Assembly: GCA_001768195.1 (NCBI GenBank)
Contig: MENI01000114.1
Location: 13,732-49,051, forward strand
DNA from: Bacteroidetes bacterium GWA2_40_15
GTDB taxonomy: Bacteria; Bacteroidota; Bacteroidia; Bacteroidales; VadinHA17
Length of the DNA: 35,320 nt
Direction of reading: 5' to 3'
Shown: positions 13,550-16,542 of the stretch, one piece after another
Layout: each line of letters begins with the position of its first letter
Numbering within the stretch: the stretch's first letter is position 1
The notes under the pieces: generated by a model
The model's input: only the letters and a program-made list of their open reading frames with translations
What the model was told of the DNA's origin: nothing
The model's database searches: none
Translations under genes and position numbers: made by a program

Positions 13550-14674
13550 ATGAATCTCTCCTTCCATACTATGATGCTGTTGGCTTATACGATCCCGAAC
13601 ATTTATGTCTTCATCCGGGTATGGCAACTGTTCATCAGCAAGGGATACAAACTACATTATGCTGCAGTTTACCTTTTCTTTGCAGCCATCTATCCGGTAA
13701 GTGAGAGTTTCAATGATGGCAGGTTCGGGTTCATTGGAGCGATACTGAGTACCATTTCTGATTATTTACTTCCGTTCTGTCTCTATCTCTTCCTGTTTGT
13801 TCTGCTGTTTGATATTTTTCTTCTGATAAATCTGATAATTAAAGTATTGCCTGCCAAAACAAGAAAAAATTACGACTTTAGAAAGTACTGCCTTACGGCT
13901 ATTTTAGCCCTCTCAGCGCTCGTGGTAACCGGAGGCGTAATAAACTTCAGAACCATCAGGACATCTATATATCAGATTGATGTTCCCGCAAGGTCATCAG
14001 AGATCAGAAATCTGAGGATTGCATTTGCCGCAGATTTTCATATTGACCCGGAAACGGAAATCGGTTTTGTAAGAAGATTCACAAGGAAGGTTCAATCCAT
14101 GGCTCCCGATCTGATGTTGTACGGAGGTGATATTGCGGAAGGCCATCATACCGATATGGGTATGGCTGAACATGAGAAATTGCTGAGTCAGATAACAACC
14201 AAATATGGTGTTTATGGGGTTCTTGGTAATCATGAGTATTACAGGGGACAGGACAAAGGGAGTTTTTTTGATAGAGCGGGTATTGAGATCCTTCAGGATA
14301 CTGTAATAGTGATCGGAAATTCATTTAGTCTTGCAGGCAGGCTCGACAGCCATTTCAGATCCAGGAAGCAGGTTGGAGAACTTCTTGAAAGTGCGGTCGA
14401 TTCATTGCCTGTAATCCTGCTTGATCATCGTCCGACTGAATTATTGGAGGCAAGCAGGACCAGGGCCGATGTTCAGCTTTCGGGGCATACCCACCACGGG
14501 CAAATGTTCCCTATCAACCTGATAACACGGAAGGTTTATCTGCTCAGCAAAGGGTATCGCAAGATTGGCAATACTCATTTCTTTGTTACCAGCGGTATCC
14601 GTCAATGGCGCTTTCCGGTCAGAACCACCGGAAAATCAGAAATAATGGTAATAGATATTAACTTTACTAAATAG
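13550..14674 (+). CDS. Membrane-anchored metallophosphoesterase (calcineurin-like, YkuE/YaeI type)
   Basis: A 374-residue protein. The first 130 residues contain about four membrane spans (LLAYTIPNIYVFIRVWQLF, YAAVYLFFAAIYPV, LYLFLFVLLFDIFLLINLII, YCLTAILALSALVVTGGVI). The catalytic domain follows and has all the metal and phosphate motifs in order: D152-F-H154 (AADFHID), G183-D184 (YGGDIAEG), G-N217-H218-E (GVLGNHEYY), LLDHRP, and SGHTHHGQMF near the C-terminus. Relatives are two-metal phosphodiesterases or phosphatases, often acting on lipid-linked phosphates or other membrane substrates; the topology fits a periplasmic or membrane-surface active site. The gene stands alone between two inverted copies of a dispersed repeat. 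Confidence 0.93.
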   Translation: MNLSFHTMMLLAYTIPNIYVFIRVWQLFISKGYKLHYAAVYLFFAAIYPVSESFNDGRFGFIGAILSTISDYLLPFCLYLFLFVLLFDIFLLINLIIKVLPAKTRKNYDFRKYCLTAILALSALVVTGGVINFRTIRTSIYQIDVPARSSEIRNLRIAFAADFHIDPETEIGFVRRFTRKVQSMAPDLMLYGGDIAEGHHTDMGMAEHEKLLSQITTKYGVYGVLGNHEYYRGQDKGSFFDRAGIEILQDTVIVIGNSFSLAGRLDSHFRSRKQVGELLESAVDSLPVILLDHRPTELLEASRTRADVQLSGHTHHGQMFPINLITRKVYLLSKGYRKIGNTHFFVTSGIRQWRFPVRTTGKSEIMVIDINFTK

Positions 14675-14710
14675 GATCTGGTGCTGGTTGCTGGGTACCA
14701 GGTTAACAGG

Positions 14711-14760
14711 TTCCCCTCTTGGGAGAGCCTGTCCCGCCTCAGCGGGAGGCTAGGGGTGGG
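14711..14760 (+). repeat. Palindromic dispersed repeat, copy 2
   Basis: A C-rich arm at 14712-14716 and the core at 14725-14749 (gagcctgtcccgcc through the gcgggagg arm) repeat copy 1 in inverted orientation (24 of 25 bases). It begins 36 bp past the stop of the metallophosphoesterase gene. Confidence 0.75.
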
Positions 14761-14792
14761 TTAAAAAATGTTGCATGTTCCTGGTTTTTATT

Positions 14793-15385
14793 CCCCCTTT
14801 GAAGGCATAGCCGTCAAGCTAAGGAGTCTGAGAAAGGAATTACATGGCAGGTCAATAAAGGCAAACGGATTAAAATATTGAGATGTAGTTTGGTAATTAA
14901 AGTTTCCCCTCCTTTTGAAGGAGGGGTGGCCGCAGCACAAAGATAATTAATATGTTACAATGATTGCTTGCGGCCGGGGTGGTTGATTTAATTGTATTTT
15001 TTTTGCTGCATTGCTGACTTCTGTTGTCCTTCAGAAAAACTTATAATTCAACTTTGCGATGATCCCTACGGCGAATATCATAAGGTTCAGGAATATGAAA
15101 ATTGGGATAGCTACCTGGAGAGCTTAGGATTCACTGTGTTAAAGTTTGAAAACAGATTTGTGTTTGGTATCCTGAATATTTGAAAATTGAGATAAGAAAA
15201 GTTTTAAATAAAAGAAATGAATCGAGCGGACAGACTAATCAACCACCCCGGCCGGGAAATGAACCTTGTAAACGTCAGATCATCAATCATCCCGGCCACC
15301 CCTCCTTCAAAAGGAGGGGAAACTTCTTCTATTCTTTCCTGCAACAAAACTATGCTTAACTTGACGGCTATGCCTTTGAAGGGGG
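14793..15385. mobile_element. Nested inverted repeat element around a DUF559 remnant
   Basis: Three inverted matches are arranged in mirror order. Outer arms A: 14793-14823 against 15355-15385 (28 of 31 bases). Middle arms B: 14900-14932 against 15293-15325 (33 of 33), each itself a cccctcctt/aaggagggg hairpin. Inner arms C: 14971-14988 against 15237-15254 (18 of 18). The B-to-C spacing is exactly 38 nt on both sides although the interior bases differ. The centre, 14989-15236, holds the broken DUF559 gene. The symmetry is what one expects of a small mobile element carrying cargo. Target-site duplications were not identified with certainty. Confidence 0.7.
14992..15359 (+). pseudogene. Broken DUF559-type endonuclease gene
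   Basis: Frame from 15007 reads IADFCCPSEKLIIQL, then GEYHKVQEYENWDSYLESLG and FTVLKFENRFVF. This matches the C-terminal half of the DUF559 (Vsr-like, PD-(D/E)xK fold) family, whose usual form is DFYCPxxKLxIELDG..H..R..YLxxxGxxVLRFxN. The N-terminal half is missing. The acidic residue of IELDG is Gln here (IIQLCD). After FVF at 15165 one base is lost: the next frame, from 15168, continues as YPEYLKIEIRKVLNKRN, as expected for the family's last helix. That frame then stays open through repeat arms C and B to a TAA at 15357-15359. I call it a pseudogene with a missing start, a frameshift and a lost catalytic residue. Confidence 0.75.
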
Positions 15386-15419
15386 TTAGGGGGATGTTTA
15401 AGCCTTGATAAATTATATT

Positions 15420-15427
15420 TAAATTTG
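15420..15427 (+). promoter_or_regulatory. Candidate -7 box TAAATTTG
   Basis: Matches the Bacteroidota TAnnTTTG pattern, 20 bp before the oxidoreductase ATG at 15448. No TTG upstream element at the usual 17-23 bp spacing was found. Confidence 0.4.
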
Positions 15428-15447
15428 AAATATTTATTGATACTGAA

Positions 15448-16542
15448 ATGAAATCTGAAAAGATAGTTGCCGGATTCATAGGGGCGGGGGGGATAGCCCG
15501 CTCTCATGCCTATTCCCTTAATTCTCTGAAATATTATTATAATGATATTCCTGAAATTGAACTTGCTGCAGTATGTTCAGCCAGGAAAGAGAGCCGCGAC
15601 TCTTTTGCAAAACAGTTTGGTTTTGGAAAAGCATGTGATATTGAGGAATTTGCTTTCGATAAAAGGATCAATACGGTTTATATACTTGGTCCGAATAAGG
15701 TACATTTCGAACACCTGAAGGCTGCAATGGAAATGGTGTCTGTAAATCGGATTTATCTCGAGAAACCGGTATGCTCGGGTGTTGAGGAAGAAAAGGCAAT
15801 CACTGAACTGATAGTTAAACACCACGTAATAAAGGTTCAGGTCGGATTTCAGTACCTCTTTTCATCAGCGATCAGGGAGGCTCTTGCATTCTGGAGAACA
15901 GGAAAATTAGGGAAAGCTATCCATTTCGATCTGAAGTATTACCACAGCGATTATCTGAAAAAAGATTATCGCGATCGAAGGACTAACCGGCTTACTCCTG
16001 CTCCCGACGGAGGTGCAATGGCTGATCTTGGATCGCATATTATCAGCCTGATGATTGCTTTCCTCGGAAACGGGATTACCATAACAAGTGCCCTACAATC
16101 AGGTCATTTTGATGATGTTGACAAGGGATCGGATCTTTTCAGCCAGATATCACTTTATGATAAAACCTCAGGTGCAGTTGGCTCACTTTCTGCAAGCCGT
16201 ATAAGTTCAGGATCAGGAGATGATATTATGCTTGAAATATATGCTGAAAAAGGAGCTATCCGTTATTCTTCCGCATCAGCCGATTACTTTGAGTATTTTA
16301 CTGAAGAGTCAGGTACGTGGAACAGGAAGATGGTTGGTAGCAGTTATAAACCTGTAACTTCATTCCCATCCGGGCATGTTCCTCCGGGATGGCTCAGGGC
16401 AATGGTGCACGCCCACTATATATTTCTTACGGGTAACAAAACAGAGGTATTTGTACCTGATATTGAGCACGGACTTGCTGTTCAGAGGATTGTCAGAGTA
16501 ACAGCTGAGAATCTGATAAAATTCAGAAATTTCAAAAAATAA
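15448..16542 (+). CDS. Gfo/Idh/MocA family oxidoreductase
   Basis: A 364-residue NAD(P)-dependent sugar or cyclitol dehydrogenase-like protein. The Rossmann motif is VAGFIGAGGIARSHAYSL at the N-terminus. The family signature Glu-Lys-Pro is in IYLEKPVCSG, with the Lys expected to take part in catalysis. The C-terminal domain begins around VGFQYLFSSAIREAL and contains DGGAMADLGSHIISLM, the substrate-site helix of the family with its GxxxDxGxH pattern. There is no signal peptide or Tat motif, so it is probably cytoplasmic. The substrate is unknown. It begins 62 bp after the right arm of the DUF559 repeat element and ends facing the NTF2-like gene 55 bp away. Confidence 0.92.
   Translation: MKSEKIVAGFIGAGGIARSHAYSLNSLKYYYNDIPEIELAAVCSARKESRDSFAKQFGFGKACDIEEFAFDKRINTVYILGPNKVHFEHLKAAMEMVSVNRIYLEKPVCSGVEEEKAITELIVKHHVIKVQVGFQYLFSSAIREALAFWRTGKLGKAIHFDLKYYHSDYLKKDYRDRRTNRLTPAPDGGAMADLGSHIISLMIAFLGNGITITSALQSGHFDDVDKGSDLFSQISLYDKTSGAVGSLSASRISSGSGDDIMLEIYAEKGAIRYSSASADYFEYFTEESGTWNRKMVGSSYKPVTSFPSGHVPPGWLRAMVHAHYIFLTGNKTEVFVPDIEHGLAVQRIVRVTAENLIKFRNFKK

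Follow-up and report, generated by a model that had tools for sequence, protein, structure and literature searches.

DUF559 nuclease genes enclosed by inverted REP-like palindromes in Bacteroidota: a candidate selfish unit organised like RAYT/REPIN systems

Repetitive extragenic palindromes (REPs) have known movers, the RAYTs, described in PMC3116915 and PMC3733652; the latter defines REPs by a tag, GTAG or CGTC, next to the stem. On the nuclease side, passages of three further papers concern DUF559 or its relatives: VsrA of Caulobacter, a Vsr-like DUF559 protein, is linked to DNA damage (PMC12907096), an EDxHD gene is discussed together with inteins (PMC9403480), and a repeated Legionella segment carries a transposase and DUF559 (PMC12308824). 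What PMC9927313 mentions is DUF5590. A tie between DUF559 and REPs was not found in the literature searched, whose scope lay outside subscription papers and bioRxiv, and it is absent from the relevant parts of PMC12907096, PMC9403480, PMC9845703, PMC12308824, PMC12306157, PMC3733652, PMC3943268 and PMC3116915.

The locus described here lies in a stretch of 35,320 nucleotides from Bacteroidetes bacterium GWA2_40_15 (assembly GCA_001768195.1, contig MENI01000114.1, positions 13,732 to 49,051), hereafter the window; the genome from which it comes (G000) is referred to as the host. The original prediction saw in it three inverted arm pairs in mirror order around a 248-bp centre holding the C-terminal part of a DUF559 gene, and took the whole for a single mobile element with the nuclease as its only cargo. 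All three pairs are present: an outermost pair of 31 nt at 90% identity (14793-14823/15355-15385), a 33/33 pair (14900-14932/15293-15325) and an 18/18 pair (14971-14988/15237-15254) with 248 nt between its arms. The centre likewise contains the C-terminal part of a DUF559 gene, matched at 15010-15162 (G000:C114:28741-28893) over profile positions 45-93 of 109 with an E-value of 1.2e-6. The arms, however, do not belong to a single element. The 33- and 18-bp matches are portions of a single 89-nt arm with two hairpins, termed REP-A, and the outer 31-bp arm is a composite in which the first 13 bases derive from a target hairpin, including a 10-bp target duplication, and the remaining 18 (CATAGCCGTCAAGCTAAG) are the terminal repeat of a carrier. 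This carrier is bounded by CATAGCCGTCAAGCTAAG and a near-exact mirror copy, beyond which lie two halves of another palindrome. From the outside in, the nest thus consists of a REP-F hairpin as target, a 567-bp element with CATAG ends and a REP-A pair around a DUF559 remnant (Table 1). The layers are found separately elsewhere, so the reading as a single transposon had to be given up. A known structured RNA was also considered for positions 14000-16000 and rejected, no Rfam family matching there at its gathering score.

Table 1. Features of the nested repeat locus (positions in the window).
Feature	Position	Strand	Basis
Solo REP-E-type repeat, variant with second hairpin inserted	14708..14763	+	sequence
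Split REP-F hairpin (target), left part	14790..14805	+	uninterrupted ATTCCCCCTTTGAAGGGGGTTAGGGGGATG at same site in G015
10-bp target duplication, left copy (CCTTTGAAGG)	14796..14805	+	
CATAG-ended carrier element, 567 bp	14806..15372		
Left terminal inverted repeat of carrier, 18 bp	14806..14823	+	
Left REP-A arm, CAG type; two hairpins (14906-14926, about 14927-14976)	14900..14988	+	
DUF559 remnant, profile positions 45-93; 7 of 10 conserved positions covered differ	15010..15162	+	
Right REP-A arm, GGA type	15237..15325	-	
Right terminal inverted repeat of carrier	15355..15372	-	
10-bp target duplication, right copy (CCTTTGAAGG)	15373..15382	+	
Split REP-F hairpin (target), right part and its tail	15373..15397	+	G015 comparison

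Empty sites in relatives, for which the original prediction had suggested a search, do exist. In a related species, G015, the same intergenic position shares with the window its neighbouring metallophosphoesterase and Gfo/Idh/MocA-type oxidoreductase genes and holds the uninterrupted hairpin ATTCCCCCTTTGAAGGGGGTTAGGGGGATG. The equivalent site of the window reads ATTCCCCCTTTGAAGG, then the element, then CCTTTGAAGGGGGTTAGGGGGATG, with an exact target duplication of 10 bp. Comparison of this empty site with the split and duplicated hairpin of the window therefore indicates that the CATAG-bounded unit was inserted into the centre of the hairpin. G002 and G031 have only a short spacer at the site of the carrier, and G017 has a longer one without such a hairpin. 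The solo REP-E-type repeat upstream is absent from the orthologous site of G015; the same variant serves as an arm flanking a clade-E DUF559 gene in G010 (L218).

The CATAG ends are a repeat family of their own, with 102 matches in the host and 93 in G012; allowing up to two mismatches, at least one is present in 27 of the 41 genomes compared within the genus, with low counts that lie near the control. Across 33 CATAG elements of the host, flank identity at 10 bp is 0.62 versus 0.41 after shuffling, a value reached in none of 2000 shuffles; for 9 bp the figures are 0.56 and 0.40. Many of the targets are hairpins with C/G runs, and palindromy across the junctions is weakly above that of shuffled pairs. 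The CATAG layer thus has terminal inverted repeats and a target duplication of constant length, as do miniature inverted-repeat transposable elements (MITEs). Nor is the nuclease its only cargo: a 1012-bp CATAG-ended element of G032 (L255:1501-2512) carries an IS200-like Y1 gene (PF01797, E 8e-20) and not DUF559, and a bare 108-bp copy is present in G008. The number of CATAG ends is weakly associated with clade A DUF559 genes (p 0.037, genomes being treated as independent). Since the carrier also occurs with a Y1 gene or empty, we treat it as a MITE-like carrier moved by a separate enzyme, probably another transposase, acting in trans. An autonomous transposon with CATAG ends was not found among the elements examined. 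An IS4-type DUF4372 transposase was considered as partner, the CATAG ends presumably resembling those of IS4, and is unsupported, with CATAG ends in none of 27 such loci at up to four mismatches; at one of these loci, L286, two ends resemble them distantly, with six mismatches. The element at L091, a REP-A/CATAG element of the host, contains an IS630-like transposase in two frames (628-1760; DDE_3 and helix-turn-helix). It was rejected as the mover, being confined to the inside of that one element.

REP-A is abundant in the host genome. The core of the 18-bp arm occurs 57 + 65 times in 4.77 Mb at up to two mismatches, versus once for a reversed-letter control, and a model of the 89-nt arm yields 126 matches, the strong ones lying mostly in inward-facing pairs or at contig ends. 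With a core count so far above the control and so many matches to the model, the inverted arms are not due to chance. The two main arm types differ in two base pairs of the second stem, each of which is replaced at both of its positions and so covaries, and as single-stranded DNA the two arms of the window fold far better than shuffled sequences (z -5.1 and -5.9). A profile search found 32 DUF559 matches in the host. At least one REP-A arm is present at 27 of the 30 loci fetched, two pairs of which overlap, and other hairpins are found at the remaining three. We analysed 49 REP-A pairs, and in 48 of them the full-length core is matched over a short stretch or more (E no higher than 0.01). The two arms of a pair are unlike in 48 of 49, one being of the CAG type and the other not (binomial p 9e-14). 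In L092 and L139 both ends were located and the DUF559 frame is open; these two units are 728 and 806 bp long. The copy of the window shares its internal deletion with copies at other sites (L094 and L099), to which it is 81-85% identical, and the same holds for further pairs at different sites, such as L096/L101 (97%) and L097/L113 (90%). That copies with one and the same deletion occupy several sites implies that broken copies kept spreading, presumably in trans with help from some enzyme.

Read in frame, the remnant in the window is free of stops. Its N-terminal half is missing and most of the conserved positions that it covers are altered (Table 1), and in all likelihood the nuclease is dead. 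Intact copies are found elsewhere in the host, and intact DUF559 genes between such arms do occur. The proteins are mostly 116-160 aa long, with conserved active-site-like residues, and evolve under purifying selection (median dN/dS 0.32). The protein, of about 130 residues, has the fold of Vsr and of the homing endonuclease I-Bth0305I, and to the latter it is also related in sequence. DUF559 is the sole family that matches all 26 proteins of our alignment A2; Y1_Tnp matches none of them, and the Vsr model TIGR00632 matches one at E ≤ 0.01 (E 0.0024). An N-terminal helix is present as well. At several loci (L143, L162, L225, L226 and others) the C-terminus, for instance SPPWGI or TPSPSREG, is encoded by the flanking REP, so that gene and repeat overlap.

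The association between DUF559 and inverted palindromes extends beyond the host. We scored inverted arms by local alignment of the left flank against the reverse-complemented right flank, with a threshold of 15. This score was reached at 14 of 22 DUF559 loci and at none of 184 other ORFs of the same contigs (Fisher p 2e-16; one of 23 loci was left out for a short flank), so the arms are not placed at random relative to DUF559 genes. In a wider genus and order set that includes these 22, the count was 66 of 92, two of 95 loci being left out for short flanks and a third (L231) for a run of N. Loci of named genomes were drawn by protein similarity from titled Bacteroidota records. Of these, 29 of 75 scored, versus 3 of 83 control ORFs (Fisher p 2e-8; five of 80 loci left out); the other 46 fall below the threshold, which counts against a REP-DUF559 unit. 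The 29 include isolates, among them Mangrovibacterium marinum and Carboxylicivirga. Other clades of DUF559 genes are enclosed by different inverted hairpins, whose tails are rich in C or G; ACCCCTAAATCCCCCAAGGGGGACTT is one of them. As supporting evidence, a crude C/G-run motif lies on both sides of 26 of 95 DUF559 loci versus 2 of 185 controls, although this motif is too narrow for clades A and G.

Some loci show further arrangements. Tandem REP arrays lie beside DUF559 genes at L158 and L170, and the motif CATAGCCGTCAAGCTAA occurs in loci of Paludibacter and Porphyromonas MAGs (L374 and L379), in L374 directly beside a REP. Leucyl-tRNA synthetase carries an in-frame DUF559 domain behind the motif GRSEGAE in two genomes that belong to other families (L164:8149-10800 and L154:7988-10699, minus strand), and the C-rich hairpin flanks are translated. 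REP-DUF559 units thus enter even this gene, which is ordinarily essential.

REP sets differ between DUF559 clades, and the copy number of a REP family tracks the presence of the corresponding clade. Common descent by itself would make the arms in cis alike within a clade. We compared genome-wide copy number in 37 genomes of the genus (G061-G064, four of the 41, were left out, their DUF559 content not having been searched), clade membership being assigned by hand from a tree without L154, L164 and L231, and clade presence being a lower bound over the DUF559 matches listed, which do not include some copies at contig edges. All eight clade-E genomes have REP-E copies (2-44), compared with 17 without any and 12 with 1-15 among the 29 genomes lacking a clade-E gene (Mann-Whitney p 4e-4, genomes treated as independent). 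For REP-F, the three clade-F genomes have 26, 21 and 1 copies, and of the other 34 genomes 26 have none and 8 have 1-12 (p 1e-3, genomes again treated as independent). G005 and G027 have no REP-E copies other than the pair flanking the gene. G004 counts against the association, with 8 REP-E copies and no DUF559 match.

These data bear on the main alternative, in which DUF559 is a passenger, perhaps kept for repair or defence, and a Y1/RAYT or DDE transposase moves the REP pairs in trans. RAYTs being the known movers of REPs, the IS200-like Y1 gene within a CATAG-ended element of G032, a sister genome, fits such an arrangement, and so do REPs without DUF559, as in G004. A passenger of this kind, however, accords poorly with the rarity of inverted arms around other ORFs (0 of 184 and 3 of 83) and with a REP copy number that follows the DUF559 clade, and we consider this explanation rather unlikely.

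Among 260 pairs of DUF559 copies in different places or genomes (62 of 322 pairs were left out for lack of a 250-bp flank), homology ends within 130 bp of the DUF559 gene on both sides in 240; the other 20 extend at least 200 bp on one or both sides, as orthologous sites would. In the examples inspected, the break is at the REPs. Two sites were followed across relatives, with some intervals extrapolated from the nearest aligned base. At the L153 site, 2 of 19 relatives are filled, 4 (including the host) contain a gene-less REP pair, and REPs are absent from 13, of which 5 have another repeat. At the L161 site, 18 relatives are informative: one is filled, one has a solo REP-A, one a solo hairpin and two other hairpins, and 13 have a spacer of 24-68 bp without REP. 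A target duplication could not be read at these older, REP-only sites. At the intergenic site of a REP-B unit, another repeat family with ACTCTGTG and ACACAGAG motifs is present in five relatives (L442, L447, L449, L450 and L457).

Solo repeats could also mean that DUF559 is a homing-type parasite of pre-existing REPs, whose repeated invasion of hairpins leaves a REP on both sides. Its homing-enzyme fold, the solo REP-A and the solo hairpin at the L161 site, and the gene-less carrier copies with a single palindrome (L180, L182 and L259) agree with this. Recombination between two arms can, however, equally yield a single palindrome; the absence of REPs from 13 of 18 informative relatives leaves a solo-first order without support, and the REP sets differ by DUF559 clade. 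We regard this origin as improbable. An ordinary role of the hairpins in terminating transcription, or as regulatory palindromes on either side of a small gene, as their intergenic position adjoining genes might suggest, is scarcely credible given multi-copy, near-identical repeats that mark the end of homology between copies and control ORFs of the same contigs that lack such inverted pairs.

REP-DUF559-REP is most likely a selfish unit that has the organisation of RAYT/REPIN systems and a nuclease of the homing type. This interpretation builds directly on the nest, the insertion with its empty site, the association in other genomes, the deletion derivatives, the selection on the protein and its fold. 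We think it probable that the unit is mobile, with a nuclease acting on its own palindromes; the window holds a deleted copy inside a CATAG carrier. Under this model, the Vsr/EDxHD-type endonuclease of about 130 residues would act on the palindrome family of its own unit and make a break at a palindromic site, into which the REP-bounded unit would be copied through REP homology, as in homing. The nuclease would in this way drive REP mobility. Copies that have partly lost the gene may keep both REPs and still spread in trans, giving rise to gene-less REP pairs. In the window, one such deleted REP-A unit lies within the TIR-bounded, MITE-like CATAG carrier, whose ends would be served by a separate trans-acting transposase, and the whole carrier was inserted into the centre of another REP hairpin with a 10-bp target duplication. 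More tentatively, and with somewhat more doubt than confidence, we propose that DUF559 drives a separate class of mobile elements, in which a single gene between palindromic REPs encodes a homing-type nuclease that cuts palindromes, seeds REP families genome-wide and replaces the HUH transposase by another chemistry. If true, enzymes other than RAYTs and unrelated to them can give rise to populations of REPs. The model offers a candidate function for DUF559, a Bacteroidota gene family without a known role, and suggests where the GC-palindrome repeats dispersed in these genomes may come from. It also opens a direct question, that of the DUF559 nuclease binding and cutting its own REP.

Several known systems resemble parts of this arrangement. 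The CATAG layer is similar to MITEs with DDE-type ends in its 18-bp terminal inverted repeats, its 9-10-bp target duplication and its short non-coding copies, but differs in that no autonomous partner was found, many targets are C/G-run hairpins and the cargo consists of whole REP units. Integron cassettes were rejected, since attC-like sites would be expected in direct orientation and the arms of the scoring loci are inverted. Unlike the Vsr mismatch endonuclease and, as presented in passages of PMC12907096, the VsrA of Caulobacter, the DUF559 genes described here are repeat-bounded and multi-copy, and the Vsr model recognises a single one of the 26 proteins. With the EDxHD homing endonuclease I-Bth0305I, as portrayed in passages of PMC3943268, they share a homologous catalytic domain; the DUF559 protein, in contrast, has about 130 residues and apparently lacks the extended DNA-binding region, and its gene is flanked by palindromes and lies outside introns and inteins in the loci examined. 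The REP/RAYT-like relation proposed in the original prediction is borne out in part, by the tie of DUF559 genes to palindromic, REP-like repeats and by a layout similar to that of REPIN/RAYT systems (REPtrons). As in the systems described in PMC3116915 and PMC3733652, short palindromic repeats are arranged in inverted orientation around a small gene; inverted pairs lacking the gene occur dispersed, as do single copies and tandem arrays, and each of several repeat families goes with a gene clade of its own. Dispersed, non-autonomous inverted REP pairs, which characterise REPINs, are represented by the 49 pairs of the host and by the gene-less pair at the L153 site. The gene, however, encodes a Vsr/EDxHD-type nuclease without a Y1/HUH domain, and the repeats carry C- or G-rich tails, with no GTAG or CGTC tag in the arms inspected. 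Because it differs in both enzyme and tag, we do not file REP-DUF559-REP under REPtrons or REPINs, similar though its organisation is.
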